From assembly GCF_004011695.2 (NCBI RefSeq), contig NC_082411.1, forward strand, positions 434,001 to 498,000: a stretch of DNA of 64,000 nt, given 5' to 3'. The position numbers were made by a program, and so were the translations under genes. The notes beneath the pieces were generated by a model. That model made no database searches and was not told the DNA's origin. It saw only the letters and a list, made by a program, of their open reading frames with translations. Below, piece after piece: positions 5,109-57,713 of the stretch (positions within the stretch are counted from its first letter, which is position 1; each line of letters starts with the position of its first letter). Origin of the DNA: Ascochyta rabiei. Its lineage: Eukaryota > Ascomycota > Dothideomycetes > Pleosporales > Didymellaceae.

Positions 5109-6700
5109 ATGCTTAAGTCAATCACTGCCGTTGCTGCCTGCGCAGCTACCTTCGTGGACGCCGCGGCTTTGCTGCCTCGTGCCAACTCCACTAAGAAGCT
5201 TGTTACCTCCGTCAGTAGCAATTCACCCTTTCCAATGTATATAGCTGACTATTAGTAGGAAGCCTTGAGGCATCTGCTTGATATTGACAACCTTTATGCC
5301 AAGGCCGAGCACTTGCAGGAGATTGCCTACAGTACTGAAGGCAAGAACCGTGTTATTGGCAGCAAGGGACACGATGACACAGTTGCCTGGATCAAGGAAA
5401 CTATCGGACAGTTTCCTGATTACTACACCATCCAGCTTCAGGGCGTCCCGCTCCTGGTTGGTGTGTCTGCGAACCTTACTGCCAACAACAAGACCATTGA
5501 AGTTTACCCGGTCACCCTTGCGCCGGAAGGTGATGTTTCAGGCCCGCTCGTTGCCATTCCCAATTTGGGCTGCGAAGAGGTGAGCTTCTCTGTATCCATG
5601 CACAAAGCATAAGTAACACGAGCTAGGCGGACTTCACTGAGAGCTTAGAGGGCAAGATTGCACTCATCAACCGCGGTACCTGCTCATTCGGTATCAAGGT
5701 TCAGCTTGCAGCTGCAAAGGGCGCACTTGGTGTGGTCGCCTGGAACAACGGCGAAGGCACTCTCGAGGGTTACTCGCTGCAGGTGTTTGAGGATCCTGCT
5801 AAGCCCTACGTGCCTGTTGGTGGTATCACTCTCGGCCAGGGCGAGTCCCTCCTCGCTCAGCTCCAAGCTGGCGTTGACATCAACGTCAACCTCAAGACCA
5901 TTGTGCAGAATGCCACTAGCTACAATGTCATTGCAGAGACAATTGCTGGTGATCATGACAACGTCATTCACGTCGGTGGACATTCGGATTCAGTTACCGC
6001 GGGCCCAGGAATTAACGACAATGGCTCTGGCTCTATCTCCCTTCTTGAGATCGCCATCCAGCTGACAAAGTTCTCCATAAACAACGCCGTTCGTTTTTCT
6101 TGGTGGACCGGTGAAGAGGCTGGTCTGCTCGGTGCTGAGTACTACGTCAAGCAGCTGTCGCAAGCTGAGAAGGACAAAATCCGTCTGTTCCTTGACTTTG
6201 ACATGATGGCATCACCCAACTACGCCATTCAGATCTACGATGGCGATGGTTCGGCATTCAACTCCACTGGCCCCGCTGGCTCTGCGGAAGCCGAGCACGA
6301 GTTCGCAGCATACTTCGACAACCTTGGTCTCAACCATACCGAGATCGAGTTCGATGGCCGTTCTGACTACGGTCCTTTCCTTGAGGCTGGTATTGCGGCC
6401 GGGGGTATTGCAGGTGGAGCTGAGGGCATCAAGACCCAAGAAGAGTTTGAGATGTTTGGTGGTGGCGCTGGTGTTCCCTACGATGTCAACTACCACGAGG
6501 ACGGTGACACAGTCAACAACCTAAACCTTGAGGCTTGGATCGAGTTTGCCAGAGCTATTGCGCACATGACCGCTACGTATGCCCGCAGCTGGGATACCAT
6601 CCCGCCAAGGAACGCCACTGCGTCGGTTAAGAGGTCTGAGAAGTACAATGAGTACAAGCAGGCTTTCCAGAAGACCAAGAGGTACCAGAGGTGGGTCTAA
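5109..6700 (+). CDS. APE3: M28 zinc aminopeptidase, aminopeptidase Y type, with PA domain
   Basis: Three exons, 5109..5210, 5259..5579 and 5627..6700, give 498 aa. The N-terminus MLKSITAVAACAATFVDAAA is a signal peptide. A PA-like domain covers roughly residues 140-240 (region with INRGTCSFG). The M28 catalytic part follows: HSDS near residue 260 (His and Asp ligands), NDNGSG, WTGEEAGLLGAEYY (catalytic Glu pair) and the late YHEDGDT His. All di-zinc ligands expected for the family are present. Yeast Ape3 is a vacuolar enzyme; many filamentous relatives are secreted, and the sequence does not decide between the two. Several N-x-S/T sites are present. Both introns are short with clean GT-AG ends. 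Confidence 0.92.
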
Positions 6701-8360: not shown

Positions 8361-9166
8361 ATGGGCGGCTATATTTCAAAGTTCTCGGGGTTAATTTGGG
8401 CGAAGAAGGAGACTAGGATACTGATTCTTGGGCTTGTGAGAGCTGTCACTTGGAGAGCGCCAACAGCGGAGGTGCTGATGACAAATGCAGGATAACGCTG
8501 GCAAGACAACACTGTTGTACAGACTGAAGGTATGTTCAAGGCAGAGAAGGGAAGGAGAATGTTGGTTGCGCGTATTACTGAAAGAGGAGATGCGATTCAT
8601 GGTGGCGATGCTGACAATTGTAACAGATTGGCGAAGTAGTTACGACAATACCAACAATAGGGTTCAATGTCGAATCGGTGACATACAAGAATCTCAACTT
8701 CAATGTTTGGGTATGTCAAATCTACACAGTAGAGAAATGACATACGTAGTCTAATACATGGCAGGATCTTGGAGGCCAGACTTCGATTCGTCCATACTGG
8801 CGTTGCTACTACGCCAACACAGCCGCTGTAATATTCGTCATTGATAGCACCGATATCGATCGTTTGTCAACCGCCTCGGAGGAACTGTCTGCCATGCTGA
8901 ACGAAGAGGAACTACGAGACGCCGCCCTGCTCGTCTTCGCGAACAAACAAGATCAACCTGGCGCAAAGGGTGCTGGCGAGATTAGCGAGGCATTGAGGCT
9001 AGGCGAACTGAAGGATCGCAACTGGAGTATTGTTGCATGTAGTGCGGTCGATGGTCGTGGTGTGGACGAGGGCATGGATTGGCTTGTGGTGAGTACAGAA
9101 GAGTTATGGCTACTTTGAGAACGCGCTACTAACCTGCTGCAGTCGAATGTGAACAATGATAACTAG
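8361..9166 (+). CDS. ARL1: ARF-like GTPase Arl1
   Basis: Five exons: 8361..8435, 8491..8529, 8627..8710, 8765..9088 and 9143..9166, giving 181 aa. The N-terminus [10 protein letters not shown] has the Gly2 for myristoylation. The GTPase motifs are complete: DNAGKTTLL (P-loop), PTIGFNVE (switch I), WDLGGQ (switch II) and NKQD (base recognition). Near-full conservation with Arl1 is obvious from the stretch around [19 protein letters not shown]. Arl1 acts at the trans-Golgi, recruiting GRIP-domain golgins. The second exon is only 39 bp and the last coding exon only 24 bp, so automated gene calls may drop either. Confidence 0.95.
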
Positions 9167-11302: not shown

Positions 11303-11367
11303 GGCCTAATGGCCCAATGGCAAGGCGCTTGACTACGATTCAATCGGCAATCAAGAGATTCCAGGTT

Positions 11368-11422
11368 GTAAGTAATTCCATCACCCGCAACGCCCAGCGT
11401 TCGATTCCTAACAATTCCTCAG
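11368..11422 (+). other. 55-nt GT-AG, spliceosomal-type intron-like insert inside the tRNA T-loop
   Basis: Starts GTAAGT and ends CCTCAG, with a consensus branch site CTAAC at 11408..11412, ten bases before the AG. Length and signals match introns of the protein genes in this window. The flanking tRNA bases rejoin as a standard TTCGACC loop. I see no bulge-helix-bulge at its ends, which tRNA-splicing endonuclease would normally need. The mode of removal is therefore inferred to be the spliceosome, or the gene is dead. Confidence 0.75.
11397..11408 (+). promoter_or_regulatory. B-box-like sequence inside the tRNA insert
   Basis: GCGTTCGATTCC matches the Pol III B-box consensus (GGTTCGANTCC) at all but the first position. 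The normal B-box of the gene is split by the insert after AGGTT. This internal copy could recruit TFIIIC instead. Confidence 0.5.
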
Positions 11423-11453
11423 CGACCCCTGGTTAGGTCATCACGACAGACAT

Positions 11454-11463
11454 CTTTTTTTTT
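11454..11463 (+). terminator. Pol III terminator (T10)
   Basis: A run of ten T begins 14 bases after the tRNA 3' end, the usual place for an RNA polymerase III stop. It argues that the interrupted tRNA gene is, or was recently, a real transcription unit. Confidence 0.75.
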
Positions 11464-12065
11464 GCGCTACAAGGCTGTCTTTTGACGGCACGCGCCTTCT
11501 CACTCTAACTATAGCTCCTTCATGCCAGGTTTGACCCCCGATTAAGTCAAAGACAATTCCTTTTTGCTCATATTGGGGTTTTGGTGCTCACTATATACTG
11601 ACCTGCCTTGCACGATGCAGAACGCAAAGCGCAGCGTCAACACAGTAAAAAGAGGCATGTTGCAGCACAAATGTAAGTTGTATACAGCTAAAACATTTCT
11701 AGCCGTTCTTTAATAATGTCTTAGCATTGTGTAGACACCCTAGGTGGCTATGGGTTCAGCTGTGCTACGCGAGTGACCTGATGGCCTGTATCGCACACAG
11801 CACATTACTGGCTGTGTTGTCCGCCAGAACGCCGGTTTCTTTTTCGTTTTTACCTCAGACTTGTTGCATCTTTGTAATTTGGTTCATATGGTCAGTGTAG
11901 CCTTGACTTAACCTACGCCATACGCTATCGTTTGTATCGTGCAAAAAGGTTTTGTGGGGAATGCATTTGATAGATATAGTTACAATACGACTGAGCGAAG
12001 AAACGTCCAATTCATGGAAGCTTTCAAGCGCAATCTCGACACTCATTGGAGCTTACTGGGACTTT
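11464..12065. other. intergenic between tRNA and methyltransferase pseudogene
   Basis: No gene seen. Confidence 0.4.
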
Positions 12066-14343: not shown

Positions 14344-15308
14344 AGGTTGACGATGGCAGTTGATTTTTGCCAGAGTGGAACGTGTCCTTTACCAGGGTGG
14401 GCAAAAGGCAACTGAACCACGTCATGCATTGCTATAGTGCGACTAGTCGACACTAAGTAAGGTGTCATACAGCGGACAGGCGCACTTCTCTTCTTTCTGT
14501 CTATGTATATATGTGTACTATGGTCTCCGGCAAAAGTAAAGTCCCATGACCAGTGCGTAGGCTAGTGTACGGAACTGTTAACAACAGATATGTATGGACG
14601 ATTTCTATCTTACTAAGACGAAGGCAGCCTGCTTGTTGGTGTGGGACATGTTCTCAATTTCGGTAGAGACTTCGAGACACCCTGGTCGAATCCCTGTCTG
14701 CACTGGCCATGGGACTCTACTTTTGCCGGAGACCATAGTATGTCAACATTTGGATGCGTACTGCTATTTCCCATGGTCACCCGCACAATTGAGGAAGCTT
14801 GGCAGCACGCTTTCATTTATCTGAAGATGACGTCTAACGGAGGGACCACCACCTCCAACCTCCACGTATATTCTCATCGAAGCGGGTTCAATGAGAGCAA
14901 GACGGCACATGCGTTTTCATTTCGATAACAAGCTGCACCCCTTGCTGTATACATCGAAGTTCCACAGCTTAGGAGGCGCCTCGATTCTTTGTTGAGGGAC
15001 GGCAACATCGCTGGACGAACCCCCGCATTCAATTAAAGTCGGGCCTGGTCTCCGGGTGAGCGGACCCCAGACCCCAGAGGATGTAATTGCCGCGAGCCAA
15101 GCTTTCTACCCGACGCTCAGTCGAGAAAACGTGTGCTAAATTCGGCCCTTTGGCTTGCGCTTCCCAAAACAATGTTTCAAATGCGGGCCAAGCATGCAAG
15201 TGCGATGAAAAGGGGGCAATCGCAATGGTCTTGAGCAAGGACAGATGTTCTACATATAGAGATGATTTCCCCACGTGCTGAAGGGACTGCTGTTGCCAAA
15301 TTTCGAAC
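14344..15308. other. intergenic, divergent promoters
   Basis: Between the SRPBCC gene (-) and the lactonase (+). Short frames only, no domain or repeat noticed. Confidence 0.4.
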
Positions 15309-16499
15309 ATGTTGTTGCCGACGCAGTCGTCACTGATACCGCTCTTTGGGGGAGCTGCGGCTGCAGCAAACCTGTACGCGACACACTACTCAGGAACAAT
15401 CAACCACCTCGCTTTCGACAACAGCTCCTTGACCCTAGTGAGCTCAGTAAAGACCGGACAGACACTACCCAGTTGGATCACCTACGACGCCTCCGATAAA
15501 AAGCTATACATCCCAGACGAGAATTTTATCACTGAGGACTCCAAGGGGCTTCTGGTGTCATACTCCGTGGGCGTTAATGGCGCGCTGACCAAGGCTGAGA
15601 ACACAACCACACTCCGAGGTGGAGTCGCAACAATTCTATACGGTGGAAAAGACGGCAAAAGCTTCATCGCAAACGCACACTATCACACCGCGCAGGTGTC
15701 GACCAACAAGCTACCTCTGAAGGATGGCAAGCCACTCCAGACATTAAACTACACATTGGATGGCCCTGGTGCAGATCCAAATCGTCAGGAGGCGCCACAC
15801 CCGCATCAAGTCCTGGTGGACCCAACAGGCAAATATCTGCTTGTGACTGATCTTGGTTCTGACAAGATCCATATCAATAAAATCAACCAGAGGTCTGGCC
15901 AGTTGACCAAGTGTCCCTCTGCAAGAACTCTCTATGGCGCTGGCCCTCGCCACGCAGCTTTTTGGACCCCTGCACACTCTAAGCCAAGAGTGGCACACGG
16001 AAAGGGTACCATGCTTTACGTTGCAAATGAGCTTTCCAACACCGTGACTGGATGGAGCGTCTCGTACCCCCGCCAAGGTTGCTTGACATTGACGCCGAAG
16101 CAAATCGTTACACCATACAAGGGCAACAGCTCCGCGCCAGATGGTGCCAGCCTGGGCGAGATTCGAGTCCAAGGGAGTTTTCTGTACACATCAAACAGAG
16201 GCGACCAATCCTTCAAACCATACGATTCCCTTACTCAATATACCATCGCGGCCAACGGCTCGATCGCGTGGACAGAGATGACTTCCTCCCATGGCCTTCT
16301 CCCGCGTAGTTTCGAGATCAACAAGGCTGGGGATTATCTCGCCATCGGTGATCAAAATTCTGATAATGTGGCTATCGTGAAACGCGACACAATCACTGGA
16401 AAGCTGGGTGGTCTTGTAGCAAACTTGACAGTCACTGGACCATCAGACCCTAACTCTGGGAATCCAACTGGTCTGAACACCGTAATTTGGGCAGAATAA
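15309..16499 (+). CDS. lactonase, seven-bladed beta-propeller (6-phosphogluconolactonase / carboxy-cis,cis-muconate lactonizing type)
   Basis: Intronless, 396 aa. The sequence shows repeated blade signatures: NLYATHYSGTINHLAF, PHPHQVLVDPTGKYLLVTDLGSDKI, GPRHAAFWTP, MLYVANELSNTVTGW, IRVQGSFLYTSNRGDQS, PRSFEINKAGDYLAIGDQNSDNV and a closing GNPTGLNTVIWAE. These are diagnostic of the fungal lactonase family (Pfam lactonase, PF10282). An N-terminal hydrophobic stretch (MLLPTQSSLIPLFGGAAAAA) could be a weak signal peptide. Substrate is unknown; related enzymes open or close lactone rings of sugar acids or aromatic breakdown products. Confidence 0.85.
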   Translation: MLLPTQSSLIPLFGGAAAAANLYATHYSGTINHLAFDNSSLTLVSSVKTGQTLPSWITYDASDKKLYIPDENFITEDSKGLLVSYSVGVNGALTKAENTTTLRGGVATILYGGKDGKSFIANAHYHTAQVSTNKLPLKDGKPLQTLNYTLDGPGADPNRQEAPHPHQVLVDPTGKYLLVTDLGSDKIHINKINQRSGQLTKCPSARTLYGAGPRHAAFWTPAHSKPRVAHGKGTMLYVANELSNTVTGWSVSYPRQGCLTLTPKQIVTPYKGNSSAPDGASLGEIRVQGSFLYTSNRGDQSFKPYDSLTQYTIAANGSIAWTEMTSSHGLLPRSFEINKAGDYLAIGDQNSDNVAIVKRDTITGKLGGLVANLTVTGPSDPNSGNPTGLNTVIWAE

Positions 16500-28958: not shown

Positions 28959-30876
28959 ATGTCTGATCCTATTGCCGGAGCTGCGCAGAAGCACCCTGCG
29001 CCCGAGGGCCTTGTATACACATACGGAACTGCTGGAGTACGTAGAGCTGCGTCATCCCCTCCAGAGCCAGGCTAACGGACCACCGCACAGTTCCGCACCA
29101 AGGCGTAAGACCTCCCTTGCCCACACCCATATTCGTACCCCGCGCCGGCCCCGCAATGTGAAGCTGACCGCAGCAGCGATGTTCTCGACTCGGTCCTCAC
29201 GCGTGTCGGTCTGATTGCCGCCCTCCGATCGCGAGCACTGAAGGGCAAATGGATTGGTGTCATGATCACGGCATCCCACAACCCGCCTCAGGACAATGGC
29301 GTGAAGCTCGTTGAGCCGATGGTATGTGCTGCTGGCAGGCAATCAGCTATCAGGCTAACGTGGTGACAGGGCAACATGCTGCAAGTACGTTCCACCGATT
29401 CCAGGTGAAGAGAATGAGAAGGTAGGAACACAGCTCTGACACCAGTCTCTAGGAGGAGTGGGAGGTCATTAGTACCGAAATGGCGAATAAGACTAGCCCT
29501 GAACACGTCTCGAAATACTACCACGACATCGCCGCCAGGTTCAAGATCGACCTGAACACCCCCGCCCGCGTCGTCGTCGCTCGTGACACAAGGGCGTCTG
29601 GAGCAAGACTGCTTGGCTGTCTGCAGGACGGTCTCGCGGCCGCCGGCGCCGAAGTCAAGGAGTACGGCTTCTTGACTACACCGCAGCTGCACTACATGGT
29701 GCGCTGCCTGAACACTGAAGGCACAAAAGACGCCTATGGCACGCCCACCGAGAAGGGCTACTACGAGAAGTTCGGCGCTGCCTTCAAGACCGCGCTGCGC
29801 GGCAAGAAGCCCTCAGGCTCTTTGACAGTAGACGGCGCCAACGGTGTGGGTGGACCGAAGCTCGCCGAGCTGATCAAGTATCTGCCATCGAAGGAGGAGG
29901 GTGGTCTTGAGATCTTTGTCATCAATGACAATGTCATCAAGCCCGAGAGTTTGAACGTCGATGTAAGCCAGGCCTTCCAAACTGATGTGAGCAGCCAATC
30001 TGACCACGAATCCAGTGCGGTGCAGACTACGTCAAAACTAATCAGCGTGCTCCTCCCTCCTCCAAGGCTGGACCTGGTGACCGCTGCGCCTCCCTCGACG
30101 GTGATGCCGACCGCGTTGTGTACTACTTCAAGGACGAGCAAAACGTTTTCCGTCTTCTGGACGGTGACCGCATTGCGACCCTGGTAGCTTCCTTCCTTGG
30201 AGACCTTGTGCGCCAGAGCGGACTCGCCGACTCGATCAAGATCGGTGTCGTACAGACCGCATACGCCAACGGAGCCGCCACAAACTACGTTGAGCAGAAC
30301 CTGAAGCTCAAGGTCGACTGCACACCTACGGGGGTCAAGTATCTCCACCACGCAGCGGAGAAGCTCGACATCGGAGTGTACTTCGAGGCTAATGGCCACG
30401 GCACCGTCATCTTCTCGCACGACACCCTTGACACAATCGAGAAGTACGAGCCAAGGAACCCAGGCGAGAAAGAGGCCATTGAGGTCCTGCAGGCTTGCAT
30501 CAACCTCATCAACCAGTCTGTTGGTGACGCACTTTCCGACTTCCTGCTCGTCGAAGTTGTGCTTGCACACAAGCACTGGGGACCCCAGGAGTGGCTCTCC
30601 ACTTACACCGACCTTCCCAACCGCCTTCTCAAGGTTCTCGTCAACGACCGCACCATCTTCAAGACCACAGACGCTGAGCGTAAGCTCACAAGCCCGGAGG
30701 GCGTCCAAGCACAGATTGACAAGGAAGTGCAGAAGGTCCGCCAGGGACGTTCGTTTGCGCGTGCCAGTGGTACCGAGGACGCTGTCCGTGTTTACGCGGA
30801 GGCTGCGACCAAGGCGGAAGCTGAAGACCTGGCCAGGAAGGTCTCCGAGATTGTCAGAGCCGCTGGTGGCGCTTAG
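28959..30876 (+). CDS. PCM1: phosphoacetylglucosamine mutase
   Basis: Six exons: 28959..29036, 29091..29104, 29177..29321, 29370..29384, 29453..29962 and 30016..30876, giving 540 aa, the usual length. The enzyme converts GlcNAc-6-P to GlcNAc-1-P on the way to UDP-GlcNAc for chitin and glycans. All active-site loops are present: phosphoserine loop TASHNPP, metal loop DGDADR, sugar-binding EANGHGT and phosphate-binding [12 protein letters not shown]. The early core YGTAGFRTKADVLDSVL is split by introns, so exon 2 has 14 bp and exon 4 has 15 bp (GNMLQ). Conservation across these joins makes the micro-exons firm. Confidence 0.95.
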
Positions 30877-32352: not shown

Positions 32353-35309
32353 ATGGCTGCGGCACCACCAAGATGGCTGCTCTCGCGGGACGAGAGCGTC
32401 GGCGAGAAGTTCGAGCAAATCATGAACCAGGACCCGTTGGGAGCTTCGGTACGCCCGACGCCGCCAACTGCCTGGGGCTCATACTGACAAAGCGCTGCAG
32501 GTAAACTCAGATGCTGTCGTTATTGCCATTGGAACCTCACTCGCTGTTACCGGTGCCATTTTCTTGGCCTTTCTATTACTTCGTCCATTCAACACCATTG
32601 TGTACGCCCCCCGCCTACGCCACGCAGACGAGAGGCACCGACCGCCGCCGCTCGACAAGTCGCTCTTCGCCTGGTACAAGCCCGTGTTCAAGACCAACGA
32701 AGACTACTACGTCGAGAAAATTGGCCTCGATGCTACCGTCTTTCTGCGGTTCGCGAGAATGTGCCGCAACATGTTCATCACACTGGCTGTCTTTGGTTGC
32801 GCCATCATCATTCCCGTCAACATCACCAACCAGATCAAGACTCGGAAGATCCAAAACCTGAGCGACGAGTCTAAGTTCATCTTCGTTATGATGACACCCT
32901 CCTTGCTGACTGGCCAGGTCTTTTGGGCCTTCGTGGTGGTCGCGTACGTGTTCGACATCATCGTTTGCGGTTACCTGTGGTGGACCTACCGAGCCGTGCA
33001 CCGACTGCGACGGAGATACATGGACAGCGCCGAGTACCAGAACAGTCTGCATGCTAGGACGCTGATGGTAACGGACATCAGCAAGGATTACCGCAGTGAT
33101 CAGGGCTTGCTTGAGATCACGGATAGCTTGAAGACCACACCCGAAGTACCACGCACGACCATTGGCAGGAACATGAAGGACATTCCAGACCTGATTGAGT
33201 CGCACGAGGAAGCCGTCATGGAGTTGGAAGCGGTTCTCTCCAGGTATCTGAAGAATCCGGATCAGCTGCCCGCCCAGCGCCCGCTGTGCACACCATCGAA
33301 GAAAGACCCAGAGTTCACAGACAAGAAGCAGAAGGTGGATGCCATCGACTACCTCACGGCCCGGATCCAACGTCTGGAAACGAAGATCAAGGAAGCGCGC
33401 GAGACGGTCGACAACAGGGATGCCATGCCTTTTGGATTTGCCAGCTACGAGACGCTCGAGTCTGCGCACACCGTCGCCTTCGTTGCGCGTAGTAAGCACC
33501 CCAAAGCTACCACCGTCCGCCTTGCACCCAAGCCAAAAGACATCATCTGGAAGAACCTGCTCCTGAACCCCAAGCAGAGACGATGGCGGCGATTCATCAA
33601 CAACGTCTGGATCACTCTGCTTACCGTTCTCTACTTCATTCCAAACGCCGGTATCGCTATCTTCTTGTCAAAGCTCAACAATCTGGCCCTTCTTTGGGAC
33701 ACCTTCAACACCGAAATGCACACGCATCCTAAATTTTGGGCCGTTGTGCAGGGTGTTCTGGCTCCAGCATTGACTTCCCTGTTCTACTATTTCTTGCCCA
33801 TCATCTTCCGTCGTCTGTCCATGAAAGCTGGCGATCAGTCGAAGAGCTCCCGCGAGAAGCACGTCATCCACCAGCTTTACGCCTTCTTCGTCTTCAACAA
33901 TCTTGTCGTCTTCTCGATATTCTCGGCTGTCTTCAAGATCATCACCAGTGCTCTGGCAGCAGCTGAAGGCGACTCGAGTTTCGTTGCAGTCGTCAGGGCC
34001 ATCGAGCCCTTCCAGCAGCTCATGGGCGCACTCTGCGATGTGTCTGGGTACTGGGTTACTTGGCTCGTTCAACGCAACCTCGGTGCGGTGATCGATCTGT
34101 CGCAGGCTGTCAATCTAGCCTGGGGCTCATTCTCACGCAAGTTCCTGAACCCAACACCACGTGAACTGATCCAGCGAACAGCCCCGCCACCTTTTGATTA
34201 CACGAGCTACTACAACTATTTCTTGTTTTACTCGACAGTCACTCTGATTTTTGGAATGTTGCAGCCTGTCACGCTGGTTGTGACTGCATTCTACTTCACC
34301 CTCGACTCCTGGATGAAGAAGTATCTCCTCATGTTCGTCAATTACGCTCCTGTTTTCACCTTCATAGCTGACATTCTACAGGTATGTGTTCTACACCAAG
34401 AACGAGACTGGCGGCCTCTTCTGGCGCGTTCTATTCAACCGCATGCTGTTCGGCGCCTTCCTGGCGAACGTTATTACTGCTTGCCTGGTGAGCACGAAAG
34501 GCGGCGTACAGCAGTACATGATGGCAGCTGCTATGGCTCCTCTTCCATTCCTCTTGCTCGGGTTCAAGTTCTACTGTAAGAAGACATACGACCACTCGAT
34601 GAAGTACTACACCCAGGGCAACACGAACAAGGGCGCCGAGGCCCAGACACCTATCGACAAGGAATCTCGCAGGCGCGATCGTGTCGCAACCCGCTTCGGA
34701 CATCCCGCTCTCTACCAGAAGCTCACCGTGCCGATGGTTTCTGAGAAGAGCAAGCACCTCCTCGCCGAAGTCTATCGCGGGCGTCTCGACGGCGATGTCG
34801 GCGACAATGCAGCTTTCAGCGACGTCTACTCCATGAAGCGCATGAGCAAAGAAAACCCTGGCAAGATCGCCACCTCGGCCACTGGACCGTTTGAATTTGT
34901 CTCAGAGAATAACATGGATTACGAGAACTTCAAAGACCGTTCCGAATTCAACTCTGACCGCGGCTCCATGTACGGCGAAAGCAACCGCCCGGACTCGCCA
35001 TCGACGCTGTGGGGCGATGATGGGCGCGGCCGTAGTTCAAGCCGCGGATCCACGCGCGCAGCCGACGACAACGGTGTCACGTATCCAGCCGGATACCACC
35101 AGACACCGAGCAATCTGCGCGAGTATAGCCCCAGCCCAGAACCGGAGTTGCGGCACATGGAGAGCAACTCGAGCCAACCGTACCAACTCCACGACGACCA
35201 TAATCTGCTAAGCGGTGCGGCCCCTATGGGGCATCAGACGCCCGCTGGGTATACGCCGTACAGCCCAGAGCGAGATGGCGAAAGGAGAGACGAGTATTTC
35301 CGCAGGTAG
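32353..35309 (+). CDS. OSCA/TMEM63/Csc1-type cation channel (DUF221 family)
   Basis: Exons 32353..32448, 32501..34332 and 34382..35309 give 951 aa. Layout of the fungal Csc1/Rsn1 family: an extracellular N-terminus, TM0 (VVIAIGTSLAVTGAIFLAFLLLRP), RSN1_TM helices, a large cytosolic loop with HARTLMVTDIS and AFVARS, then the channel core from NNVWITLLTVLYFIPNAG through FVFNNLVVFSIFSA to YTKNETGG and the last helices. A long polar C-terminal tail ends in FRR. The family forms osmotically or mechanically gated cation channels or lipid scramblases in plasma membrane or ER. The second intron needs the rare 5' site GTTCGT to keep frame and the LLMYVFYTKNE motif. Confidence 0.92.
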
Positions 35310-43562: not shown

Positions 43563-45332
43563 CTACCGAAACCCGCCTCTCCGTCGCGGCGTCTTCAACT
43601 CTTCCCTTGCGCCTTCTTGTGCATAGCTCGGTAACGCCGGTGTACTCTGTGTATGCTGCAATATCGGCGGCTGTGGAGGCTGCACGAACCCCCGTCCCTC
43701 ATATGGTGTCTGATACGGTGTTTGCCACGCTGGCTGGCCGTTCTCGATGTGGCTGTTCGAGTTGATGCGATGCGGTGTGTGCGGTGGGGGTGCGAAATCG
43801 TTGTACTGTGGCTGTGGTTGGGCATGTTGCTGGCGGAGCAGACCAAATGCCCAATTTGAAACATTGAAGCCACCGAAGATGAGAATCGTCAGGAAGATCT
43901 ATGTTGAGAGTCGACGTCAGCAAAGTCGTGGATGTTGAGATGGTGTGGGTTGTGAGAAGCTGATCTGAGGCTGATTGAAGTCTGGAAAGTGTTCTGTTGG
44001 TTCGGAGGGATGCAGAAATACGGCATGACCGTAAAATGGTGAGTGATACAAGGGAGAGTCGTGCGCCACGCGCAACCCGTCTCCCACTTCTTTGCTCGAT
44101 CCATGCAATCTCCACGCTTGTACCTGAAGCCAACCACATCCACAGATGAAAAGAAACGAACATACCATAGACTTGTAGCTGAACTCCTCGAAGAAGCTGT
44201 TGATGATGGAAGCGAATGTCTTGACGGTAACGCTCGCGCGAGCAAGCTTGTTTGGGTCACGGTTCATGCAGGTCTCCCAGTTGCCGCACGCCATCTCCAT
44301 GGCGGGGACGCGGGTGTCTGGCTCGCACCGGTTATCGCGGTAGTTCTTAACGCACTGGGCGATCTCGACCAACATCTCGGAGGCGTGCTTGTTCGATTCA
44401 ATGTCCACGTCCGCCATGATGCCGGTGTAGATGCAATAGAGGATGAACATGAAGGAGAGAGCAAGGAAGACGTTGACGGTAAACTGCATGTACCAGGAAA
44501 GCACCGAGGGGAGTCCTGGGTGTGCCTCAATCCAGTGGAAGAAGCCTGCAATTCTGGCGCCGTACGTTTGCTGCACTTGGCCCAGCTCTGTCGGTGCGCT
44601 CTTCTGTACCTGGGCCGGCTCATGGTCGGATTCCTCGTCGTCGCCGTCGCGCAGCACCAGCTGCTTCTTTCTCGATCGGTCGGAGCGTTCGCGCGTTGAC
44701 CGCCGCTTCGCAACGCGATTCTCCATCTTCTCGTTGTAGTGTTTGCGCGACACCTCCTTCTCTATCTCCTTCATCGACTCCTTCGCTGGGCTCGGGCTCC
44801 CCCAGTTCTGGATGCGCTTGAAAAAGCTTTGTCGGCGCCCGCCCTTCTTGGGGCTGGGGCTGTCCATCAGCAGCCGCATCTTGCCTGCTATTTGTGTATC
44901 GGGCGTGGCCTGTTCGCTGTCCTGCGCGGGTGTGTTCGGAGTCTCGCCGCCAGAGCTGAAGTCGTAGTCGGCCGATGGTGTGCGAGGCGTCCATGCGTTG
45001 GTGTGTGGCGGCAGCGAAGGAAGTGGCTTGCCGCCGCTTTGCGGAAAGCCAAGGGCCGTCTCGCGCAGGCGGCTTGGTGTTGCGAAAGCGCTCTTGGAGG
45101 GTGAATCGAATGGAGGGTTGGTGCCTGGCTGGCCGTACAACGGCCCGTTGGTTAGCTGGAATGTCCCATCGGCGGCGAGAGAGTGGCTTTGGCTAAGGAC
45201 AGGCTCACGTTTCCTCGCAGCGGGCGAGTTGGTGATGTTCATGAAAGGCGAACGATGGTCGACGGGGCCTTGTTTGTTGTCATACTCAAAGTCCATGGGC
45301 GTCAACGACTCCCGGTGGCCTCCGCGCGACAT
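43563..45332 (-). CDS. BRL1: nuclear envelope protein of the Brr6/Brl1 family
   Basis: Exons 44166..45332 and 43563..43898 give 500 aa from MSRGGHRESL. The frame is open farther up (ATG 45419 and 45455), so the start is uncertain. The N-terminal half is disordered (MDFEYDNKQGPVDHRSPF, proline/serine-rich, then a basic KRRSTRERSDRSRKK). The conserved core has TM WYMQFTVNVFLALSFMFILYCIY, an intermembrane domain with paired cysteines (IAQCVKNYRDNRC, MACGNWETCM) and a second TM rejoined over the intron (SYKSM to IFLTILIFGGFNVSNWAFGLL). The family works in nuclear pore assembly and envelope lipid balance. The 267-bp intron is long for this window. Brr6 versus Brl1 cannot be told. Confidence 0.85.
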
Positions 45333-45719
45333 ATTGTCTGAAAAGCGCAGGTTGGGCTCGAGGGCAACGGGCAGGGGCGGCGCGTTGTGGGGTAGAGGGG
45401 AACTGTGGTTGCTACGCATAGCAATAGCAATAGCAATAGAGTGGGTCGTAAACAAATCACTGTGGCTGCTGTGGCGTACGCGCTTGTGGATGCGGCACGA
45501 GCCACAGTGACGTCGTTACACCCGGCGCGTAGATGCCGACCTAGCTTCACCCTCAAACACGTACTCTGGTACTTCCATGGGTCCTCGTGGGCAAAAGGAG
45601 TACCACTCGCTATAGTGCGCAAGAGGCTGTCATGTGATTTCGAGAGGATCTATGAACCTTGGTATAGGGTCTTCCATGTACGTATAACCATCACCAAAAC
45701 CAGACCCTATCCTTCCCAC
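45333..45719. other. intergenic upstream of BRL1
   Basis: May include 5' extension of the BRL1 frame. Contains a short (AATAGC)n run near 45419..45438. Nothing else. Confidence 0.4.
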
Positions 45720-55902: not shown

Positions 55903-57713
55903 CTATAGTTCATTGTGCTCAGGCACATCCGGCTTCTTGACATCCACCCCACAAACCGCTGGCGTACCAACCTCCATCCTATATACACACTTCTCCTCCT
56001 CTACAACCTTCCACACCTCATCATTTTCAGCACATGCCAAGATGACGGTCGTGCTACGGTTCGGTCCATTCCAGCAGTGTTGTCCATTCTCGTACTTCAA
56101 TGCGATCCGGTCACCGCTTCCCAACCCCTTACCATCGGCCGGCAGGGTCTCATCAACAGTGACGATCTCAATACGCACAAAGTTGCCCATGCCAGTGTGA
56201 GCGCCACCTTTCTTCGACTTCTGGGTGGTCTTGCTAAGGAAGCAGTGCTCGTACGTGTATTCGCCGCTGTCCTGGCTAACGCAGCGGCCGTTCAGGGCGC
56301 GGAAGATGGAGTCCGGACCGTAATCCTTGGTGAGGTCTTCTTCGTGCTTAGTAAGCTCAGTCCTGTCGTTGGCAAGCTCGCGAGTGGCAGACTCGAGTTG
56401 GGTTTTGGCGTCTGTGACGGCTTTGGACTCGGGACTGTCGGTGTTGGGGTTCGCAAGGATGCCGTTCTCGATCAGTGTTACTCGAAGATCGCGTAGCTTT
56501 GTATCTACCCAGGTCCTGACAGATTCAGGTAGGTAGTTCTCGAATTGATAGACTGTGAGTGATAAGTAGTTGCTCAAGATGCGAACTCTCGGAGAACTTA
56601 CGGACGTCAACGTCAGATTCTTCAACAGTTTCGAACTCGTCCCACTTGATAGCGCTCTCAGAATCGGGCTTTAGGATGTCGTCGAGGTCGCGGTCGCGGG
56701 CAGCATCTGGTCCAGGCCAGTCCTGTGCCGCATAGTCCTCCCACGCTTTGACGGCGCGCTTCACACCCTCATCGTTGAAGTTGGGGTTGTACTCCTCCTT
56801 GAAGCGTTTCAGCATGCCCTCGAGCTCGTCGATTCTCCCCTTGGCTGCATCACGCTCCCGGCGCACCCGCTCAACAATCTCAGTGAGCTCCTGAATCCTG
56901 CCTTTTGCCAGGCTAGCTAGCACTGTGACCTTGCCACTCTTGCCTGCACCCTTGACTACCCTGCCCTTCTCCGCGCGCTCGATCTCGGCCAAGCTCTTTG
57001 TCAGTGCATCCACTTTTTGTGTCTGACCTTCAATCTGTGCCTTGAGGGTTGATATCCGGTCCTCGACCTCCTTCCTCAAACGCCCAGACTCGGCCACCAG
57101 CTCTTTGCGCTTCTGTCGCGCAGCGTTCAGGCTCTTCTGCCGCGCCTCGTCCTGCTTTCTCCACTCCTTTCCAATCTTAGCGCACTGGTCGGGGCATTTT
57201 ACCCCGCCAATGCCCTCGTATTCGTCGCTGCCGTCGCAGCACAGCTCGTAATCGCACTTGCCGTCGTTCACGTTCGTGAAGGGAATGTAGCTGGGAATGT
57301 GGCCCTTGTTCTTGCAGTAAAACCCTGGCAGGGCGAGGTTCTCGTCAAATGAGCCAAGCTTGACCGTCGAAGGTTGGGGAGGAGAAAGTGGAGAGATATA
57401 GGAGCACGCGGATGTGCCAGGTTCGTCTGAGCCGTCAGGGCAGTCGCAGTAATCGTCGTTCAGTCGGGAAATATCGAGCTTGATGCTGGGGTTGGAGATA
57501 CAAGTGAATGTCTCGGTATCTTTGTAGAATTTGGCGACTATATTGCTTAAGGTCAGCCCTCAATGTCCTTGGGGATATAGCTCCAACGCCCAATGTGGGT
57601 GACATACAATCAGGACCTACACCACGCGGTCGTGGAGGGTCTGATGCCGCATTTGTGGTGCTAGCAAGCAGAGAAAGGAGCAATGCAAGTGAGGAAAGAG
57701 TCTGCCTCCCCAT
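55903..57713 (-). CDS. GTB1: glucosidase II beta subunit (PRKCSH family)
   Basis: Exons 57608..57713, 56602..57537 and 55903..56552 give 563 aa. Signal peptide MGRQTLSSLALLLSLLASTTNA, then RGVGPDFAKFYKDTETFTC, two LDL-receptor-type Cys repeats (DYCDCPDGSDEPGTSAC and GKCDYELCCDGSDEY), a coiled coil over roughly residues 190-300, an acidic stretch, and a C-terminal MRH domain (GRCVSQDSGEYTYEHCFL, then GLGSGDRIALKYENGQHCWNGPNRST). The protein ends in HNEL, an ER retrieval signal. It retains glucosidase II in the ER and binds trimmed N-glycans during glycoprotein quality control. Confidence 0.95.

Follow-up and report, generated by a model that had tools for sequence, protein, structure and literature searches.

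Small spliceosomal introns occur in the rRNA genes of fungi, and the intron of the Schizosaccharomyces U6 gene reportedly matches the tRNA B box (Frendewey et al. 1990), an element with the consensus GGTTCRANYCC. U3 and U6 were in 2017 the only small structured RNAs so far known to be often interrupted by introns (PMC5832005). The U6 intron of S. pombe is of the mRNA type, and the catalytic role of U6 has suggested reverse splicing (PMC10484740). U3 snoRNA genes of fungi likewise carry ordinary fungal introns within a small structured RNA, and interrupted and intronless paralogs can coexist within a single genome (PMC5832005). One fungal example of a spliceosomal intron in rRNA is named in PMC11782384. 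Archaea, Cyanidioschyzon and nucleomorphs have ectopic introns within the body of the tRNA, in part within the T arm (PMC4090602). Searches of an open-access library gave no account of a tRNA gene interrupted by a spliceosomal intron.

The tRNA-Arg(ACG) genes of the ascomycete Ascochyta rabiei feature two interruptions. One is a canonical intron at 37/38, the site of TSEN introns (11339-11349 in the copy described below). The other differs from it, as it splits the T loop at 55/56 and carries a GT donor, a branch site and an AG acceptor. This 55-nt insert is very probably a U2-type spliceosomal intron, residing in the T loop of the sole tRNA-Arg(ACG) family found in the nuclear genome and likely providing a B box used by the gene. 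To judge from the sequences, tRNAs most likely join U6 as small Pol III RNAs with functional introns of the mRNA type.

As in Schizosaccharomyces U6, a spliceosomal-type intron is found in a Pol III transcript, and a B-box match lies inside the intron; one U6 gene of A. rabiei also carries two GT-AG inserts. There, however, the host is a spliceosomal RNA, whereas here the hosts are tRNAs, the original B box is broken, and all the Arg copies found are affected. Fungal rRNA introns are also spliceosomal and interrupt a structured RNA not made by Pol II, but the transcript is a Pol I product and no internal promoter is at stake. Fungal U3 differs in having a snRNA-like promoter and a cap, and introns located for the most part in the first 5' hairpin, and involves no tRNA (PMC5832005). 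In archaea and Cyanidioschyzon, the ectopic introns are linked to bulge-helix-bulge structures (PMC4090602), none of which was detected beyond chance in the Arg introns.

Structure of the tRNA-Arg(ACG) gene

The window denotes the whole stretch of 64,000 nucleotides analysed (contig NC_082411.1). The tRNA-Arg(ACG) gene spans positions 11303-11440 of the window, and all its features lie on the + strand. It is interrupted by 11 nt at 37/38 and by 55 nt in the T loop at 55/56. Exon 1 (11303..11338) includes the 5' strand of the acceptor, the D arm and the anticodon loop up to A37, and is identical in the six copies found in the genome. The A box of the Pol III internal promoter, TGGCCCAATGG (11310..11320), is exonic and invariant in 6/6 copies; we take this sequence to fit the A-box consensus. 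The canonical intron (11339..11349), placed by the cloverleaf, is the expected TSEN substrate; it measures 10-11 nt and varies in sequence across the six copies. Exon 2 (11350..11367) is made by A38, the 3' strand of the anticodon stem, the variable loop, the 5' strand of the T-stem, T54 and T55. The T-loop intron (11368..11422), 54-55 nt long across the six copies, is of spliceosomal type and separates T55 from C56, thus splitting the T loop. Exon 3 (11423..11440) carries the remainder of the T arm from C56, the 3' strand of the acceptor and the discriminator A73. A run of nine T residues (11455..11463) marks the Pol III terminator; a run of at least 5 T occurs within 32 bases downstream in 6/6 copies.

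As read by eye, the acceptor strands GGCCTAA and TTAGGTC pair at 7/7 positions, with one G-T, and T8 and G9 precede the D arm. The anticodon stem (CTTGA/TCAAG) and the T-stem (CCAGG/CCTGG) both pair 5/5, also by eye, and the anticodon is ACG. Cloverleaf, anticodon, terminator and exon conservation, by which a functional nuclear tRNA-Arg(ACG) gene is recognized, are thus all present. Rereading of the sequence bore out the coordinates, stem pairings and two-insert anatomy given in the first-pass annotation. Its account of the insert signals was correct for GTAAGT, CTAAC and CAG, and needed amendment in the distance from CTAAC to the final AG, which measures eight bases rather than ten. The annotation mentions neither the B-box match inside the intron nor the 3'-end relic found past the gene.

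Other genes of the window, assigned by Pfam and ordinary for a fungus, encode an M28 peptidase (5627-6700), a lactonase (15282-16499), a RSN1/PHM7-type channel (32426-34579), a Brr6-like protein (43917-45515), a P450 (53091-54119) and a glucosidase II beta-like protein (56525-57559).

Effect of the inserts on tRNA recognition

No tRNA was detected in the window by ARAGORN, nor by Rfam at the gathering threshold; at a loose E-value, the Rfam tRNA model reached just 15.5 bits in the window. A comparison of tRNA finding with and without the insert, which had been proposed along with the original observation, was run with ARAGORN on all copies. A tRNA was recognized in 0/6 unspliced genes, and in 6/6 once the T-loop insert alone was removed. 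In the latter set the default option called Arg(acg) in 5/6 (locus L005 being unclear), the intron option in 4/6, the calls for L003 and L005 being wrong in the vicinity of their 37/38 intron. Removal of both inserts gave Arg(acg) in 6/6 with either option, removal of the 37/38 intron alone a tRNA in 0/6. In minimum free energy folds, the precursor which retains the 37/38 intron and lacks the T-loop intron forms the acceptor and the T arm; the mature sequence alone does not give the full cloverleaf.

Six interrupted copies in the genome

The source genome measures 40.9 Mb and is divided into 23 contigs. A DNA search with the gene identified six loci, residing in contigs C7 (the window copy), C15, C5, C19, C4 and C8. 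The contigs range from 1.4 to 2.6 Mb, the flanks of the loci differ, and both inserts are found in 6/6 genes. The same six loci were detected by a 28-nt pattern covering the D arm through the anticodon (at most 3 mismatches; none in the control), and again by the joined mature sequence, which aligned over its first 54 bases only and never across the junction. A 24-nt pattern for the 3' end as joined, with at most 3 mismatches allowed, matched one place only in the genome, a relic beside L003 in C5 (3 mismatches; none in the control). An intact nuclear tRNA-Arg(ACG) copy was not found in the genome searches, in which the best candidates were scored; a diverged copy may conceivably exist. ARAGORN also called a tRNA-Arg(acg) on C23; this contig, 55 kb long and densely set with tRNA genes, looks like the mitochondrial genome.

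Across the six copies (15 pairs), no difference occurs among the 72 exon bases. Mean pairwise identity is 0.708 (0.564-0.855; 15 pairs) for the T-loop introns, and 0.648 for the 37/38 introns. The flanks average 0.409 over 120 bases upstream and 0.429 over 60 bases downstream. Because exons are identical and introns have diverged, the product appears to have been kept and the intron left free to change. Exon identity could also stem from gene conversion, which would need to stop at every intron border.

The first-pass annotation had offered two alternatives, a Pol III transcript processed by the spliceosome or a gene inactivated by the insertion, and had stated that an assembly error at the insert, or the presence of several intact copies in other places, would speak against the former. 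What was found are six copies out of six interrupted at one site, in six contigs, with exons 100% identical and no intact copy detected, a picture that supports the spliceosomal alternative over that of a dead copy. Six interrupted loci in as many contigs, with no intact copy detected, are explained neither by an assembly error nor by the death of a single copy.

Splice signals of the T-loop intron

The 5' splice site GTAAGT (11368..11373) is conserved in 6/6 copies. The branch site (11408..11412) is CTAAC in five copies and CTTAC in one, thus CTNAC in all, and the 3' splice site (11420..11422) is CAG in five and TAG in one, thus YAG in all. The branch A is invariably located 11 nt from the 3' end of the intron. 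The consensus given for fungal introns includes a GTRWGT donor, a RCTRAY branch site, a YAG acceptor and a spacing of 6-36 nt (PMC5832005). Donor, acceptor and spacing of the Arg introns agree with it; the branch site, CCTAAC in five copies and CCTTAC in L006, is preceded by C and not by the R of that consensus. The fungal GT donor, branch site, YAG and spacing by which U2-type introns are defined are hence found in 6/6 inserts. The six introns are homologous, and their common motifs do not amount to six independent observations.

The signals are also featured by a protein-gene intron of the same window. This intron (29322-29369, 48 nt), located in a phosphoacetylglucosamine mutase gene, reads GTATGT..GCTAAC..ACAG, with GCTAACGTGGTGACAG at its end. 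Its removal joins KLVEPM to GNMLQ, and 2/3 homologues covering the exon border read ..DPMGEML.

Stretches of 54 or 55 nt fitting GTRAGY...CTNAC(4-14)YAG are rare in the window, 3 out of 255,782 on both strands, and the T-loop insert is one of the three. The remaining two, both 54 nt long and on the + strand, start at 9089 and 41536. Genome-wide, a GTNNGT...CTNAC...AG insert pattern at the T-loop site gave 32 matches, against 21 in the reversed control. Flanks were read for 30 of the 32, the other two residing in C22, and among these 30 a 5/5 T-stem was restored in the six tRNA-Arg(ACG) genes only. The next-best T-stem (4/5) was seen once, in L083, which is not tRNA-like. The T-loop pattern found 0 matches in collections of viral and genome contigs, neither of which is meant to hold fungi. 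From these signals we infer that the T-loop intron would be removed by the spliceosome.

A likely intronic B box

The B box of the gene itself is split by the T-loop intron (GGTT|CGACCCC). A candidate B box, GTTCGATTCC (11399..11408), is located inside the intron, and is likely to work as a replacement promoter element. The motif GTTCRAWTCC is found in 6/6 introns, starting at intron position 31 or 32, and overlaps by its last base with the branch site. A conserved B-box match inside the intron, the trait known from S. pombe U6, is thus present in all tRNA-Arg(ACG) copies. From the start of the A box to that of the intronic B box, the six copies measure 86-88 nt.

Seven of the nine B-box columns are invariant, compared to 5 of the 33 other non-signal columns of the intron (one-sided Fisher p = 0.0008, post hoc), and the two varying columns are just those, R and N, left free in the consensus. 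Since the motif had been seen before the test was made, and all six introns are homologous, the result denotes conservation within a single intron family. On the two strands of the 64-kb window, GTTCRANYCC has two occurrences in all. A composite of B box and branch site has 11 matches in the genome, six of which are the Arg genes, and 11 in the reversed control. A pattern requiring the B box inside the insert has 9 genome matches and none in the control, and six of these are the tRNA-Arg(ACG) genes. Among the three others, one was read with its flanks (C4:1235927), and by eye is not a tRNA. The intronic GTTCRAWTCC is likely, on the evidence of its sequence and position, to be a replacement B box for Pol III.

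Relics of intronless 3' ends

Decayed, intronless copies of the tRNA 3' end are found past the terminator of three of the six tRNA-Arg genes. The relic in the window, CCAGGTTTGACCCCCGATTAAGTCA (11525..11549, + strand), is identical to the joined 3' end at 21/25 positions, and is the best match to it in the window. The relic downstream of L003 (C5:350179-350202) is identical to the tRNA-Arg 3' end at 20/22 positions; a shorter one was recognized by eye downstream of L002. The relics suggest one of two histories, an intronless T arm formerly adjoining the genes, or the copying back of spliced RNA. A T-arm duplication might have given rise to the intron, in whose B-box region a resemblance to the T arm (CCAGcGTTCGAnnCCT) is seen; the score of this resemblance was reached by 16, 42, 51, 78, 240 and 1629 of 2000 shuffles in the six copies, and does not exceed chance in all of them.

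Other interrupted genes

A second type of interrupted tRNA gene was identified in contig C12. This tRNA-Leu(CAG) gene (L064, 238-373) carries a 55-nt GT-AG insert at 10/11, within the D stem and the A box. Its sequence reads GGACAGATGG, then the insert GTAAGC...TTCACTAACAATTCTACAG, then CCGAGCGG, and the insert signals are GTAAGC, ACTAAC and ACAG. The B box of this gene is intact, and its intron has no B box by eye. The sole other tRNA-Leu(CAG) copy found, in C4 (L045), is uninterrupted, and its exons are identical to those of the C12 copy at 81/81 positions. The C12 gene is detected by ARAGORN with default settings only after removal of the insert, and is called as a misplaced tRNA-Leu(aag) with the intron option. 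With a broken A box and an intact twin in the genome, it may be inactive, and is possibly a dead copy. A 3' motif common to the Leu intron and the window Arg intron (CTAACAATTCNNCAG, the sole motif tested for an introner family) was found in three places of the genome, two of which are these introns, and in none of the control.

Two U6 genes were identified at the Rfam cut-off, in C9 (L107) and C14 (L108). The C9 gene carries two inserts. The first (L107 149-214, 66 nt) follows ACAGAGAA and reads GTATGT...GTTAACACGTCGCAG, with a GCAG end; the second (L107 252-304, 53 nt) follows CGCTCA and reads GTGAGT...CTCACACCTCTGACAG, with an ACAG end. Both are of the GT..CAG type and feature weaker branch candidates, TTAAC in the first, TTGAC or CTCAC in the second. 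The C14 gene is uninterrupted, and the C9 gene, minus both inserts, is identical to it at 94/94 positions. Exact removal of the inserts hence restores the host RNA in all three cases, as judged by ARAGORN for Arg (6/6), and by comparison to uninterrupted paralogs for Leu (81/81) and U6 (94/94). B-box-like sequences occur shortly past the T-run of both U6 genes, at about 344-354 in L107 and on the minus strand in L108. The one in C9 shares CCAGCGTTCGA with three tRNA-Arg introns (L001, L002, L006).

The tRNA family search of the genome scored 63 of 1588 candidates and listed 62 matches, in which the C12 Leu gene figures as a partial match. Four tRNA-Phe genes were missed by this search; the two which were read both carry a 37/38 intron. 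Many isotypes are absent from the list, and further body introns may have gone unnoticed in the genes not listed. A tRNA-Lys(CTT) gene (L065, C5:855139-855197) ends early in the T stem and is followed by a T-run; by eye it is truncated and has no GT-AG insert. The other nuclear tRNA-Arg genes seen have the anticodons TCG, CCG, CCT (two genes) and TCT; the CCG gene was read by eye, and is called CCT by ARAGORN.

Alternative explanations

The intron may be spliceosomal, and GTTCRAWTCC be kept by its adjacency to the branch site or by mere descent, with Pol III relying on the A box and on elements located upstream or downstream. The abutment of the motif to the branch site, with one base in common, is consistent with this view, as are the B-box-like sequences which follow the two U6 genes, the B-box-like stretch contained in the relics past two tRNA-Arg copies, and the post hoc nature of a conservation test confined to one intron family. 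Yet GTTC.A.TCC is conserved outside the branch bases, and variation is limited to the two positions free in the consensus. Introns do not in general feature a B box next to the branch site, given 11 genome matches (six of them Arg) against 11 in the control, and by eye it is lacking in the tRNA-Leu(CAG) intron, the host of which has an intact B box. We regard this explanation as rather unlikely.

That the T-loop insert is an ectopic tRNA intron cut by TSEN, as in red algae, nucleomorphs and archaea, is quite improbable. Guillardia nucleomorphs and Cyanidioschyzon do have non-canonical introns in the D and T arms, and RT-PCR has confirmed some of these (PMC4090602), and the tRNA-Arg(ACG) gene already carries an intron at 37/38. 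In the Arg genes, however, the best bulge-helix-bulge at the T-loop junctions features 5-6 pairs out of 8, a score reached by 913-1770 of 2000 shuffled introns, and compensatory changes were seen in 0/35 pairs of a consensus fold of the introns. A bulge-helix-bulge intron was accordingly rejected, pairing being no better than in shuffles, no fold covarying, and the site being 55/56 and not 37/38. The conserved parts of the intron include GTAAGT, CTNAC and YAG, and we know of no requirement of TSEN for any of them.

Insertions in the D or T arm of eukaryotic tRNA genes mostly hit one of many copies and are supposed to mark pseudogenes, nucleomorphs and red algae being exceptions to this view (PMC4090602). 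The six Arg genes might in the same way be dead or dying, and CGC and CGU be read by the product of another, unseen tRNA gene, the more so as the genome tRNA survey, with 63 of 1588 candidates scored, is not exhaustive. This reading is very unlikely. All six copies are interrupted and an intact one was not found in the genome searches; exons are 100% identical against 71% for the T-loop introns; terminators, anticodon and stems are intact; and the tRNA-Arg(acg) called by ARAGORN on C23 resides in a contig of mitochondrial look. The unusual structure of the gene could also raise the suspicion of an assembly artefact or a contaminant, the probability of which is negligible, given six loci with different flanks in six contigs of 1.4 to 2.6 Mb. 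A single dead copy or an assembly artefact is rejected by the six loci.

Proposed expression of the gene and implications

A spliceosomal intron carrying a substitute B box, the reading preferred here, implies the following course of events. Pol III would transcribe tRNA-Arg(ACG) from the exonic A box and the intronic B box. Because the B box of the gene is split by the intron, TFIIIC is proposed to use the intronic one, and would bind it next to the branch point. The nuclear spliceosome would then remove the T-loop intron and restore the T arm. The steps that depend on the T arm, such as end trimming, T-loop modification and export, could take place only thereafter, and TSEN and the tRNA ligase would remove the 37/38 intron after T-loop splicing. 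In budding yeast, tRNA splicing by TSEN is a cytoplasmic step. Transcription from an intronic B box, spliceosomal removal of the intron and the order of the steps are what we infer from the organization of the six genes.

To our knowledge, CGC and CGU are read in eukaryotes by the ICG tRNA alone. The two codons account for 130 of the 263 Arg codons in eight long frames of the window, which were taken from stop to stop, so that some codons may be untranslated. The cell probably needs the mRNA-splicing machinery to make tRNA-Arg(ACG). We consider it likely that an essential cytosolic tRNA, for which no other reader of CGC and CGU was found, derives solely from genes that depend on both spliceosome and TSEN, that the intron brought, or evolved, a B box replacing the one it destroyed, and that spliceosomal introns have entered tRNA genes of this lineage more than once, as the tRNA-Leu(CAG) pair indicates.

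The tRNA-Leu(CAG) pair offers a natural presence/absence case for the gain of spliceosomal introns. The search for noncanonical introns by tRNAscan-SE 2.0 is described for the archaeal mode (PMC8450103), and tRNA finders which expect only 37/38 introns in eukaryotes will miss genes of this kind. If the reading is true, the introns of tRNAs and those of mRNAs, which textbooks keep apart along with the machineries that remove them, would be joined in one tRNA family, and the case would show how a gene with an internal promoter survives the cutting of that promoter. The translation of common arginine codons would then be tied directly to splicing.
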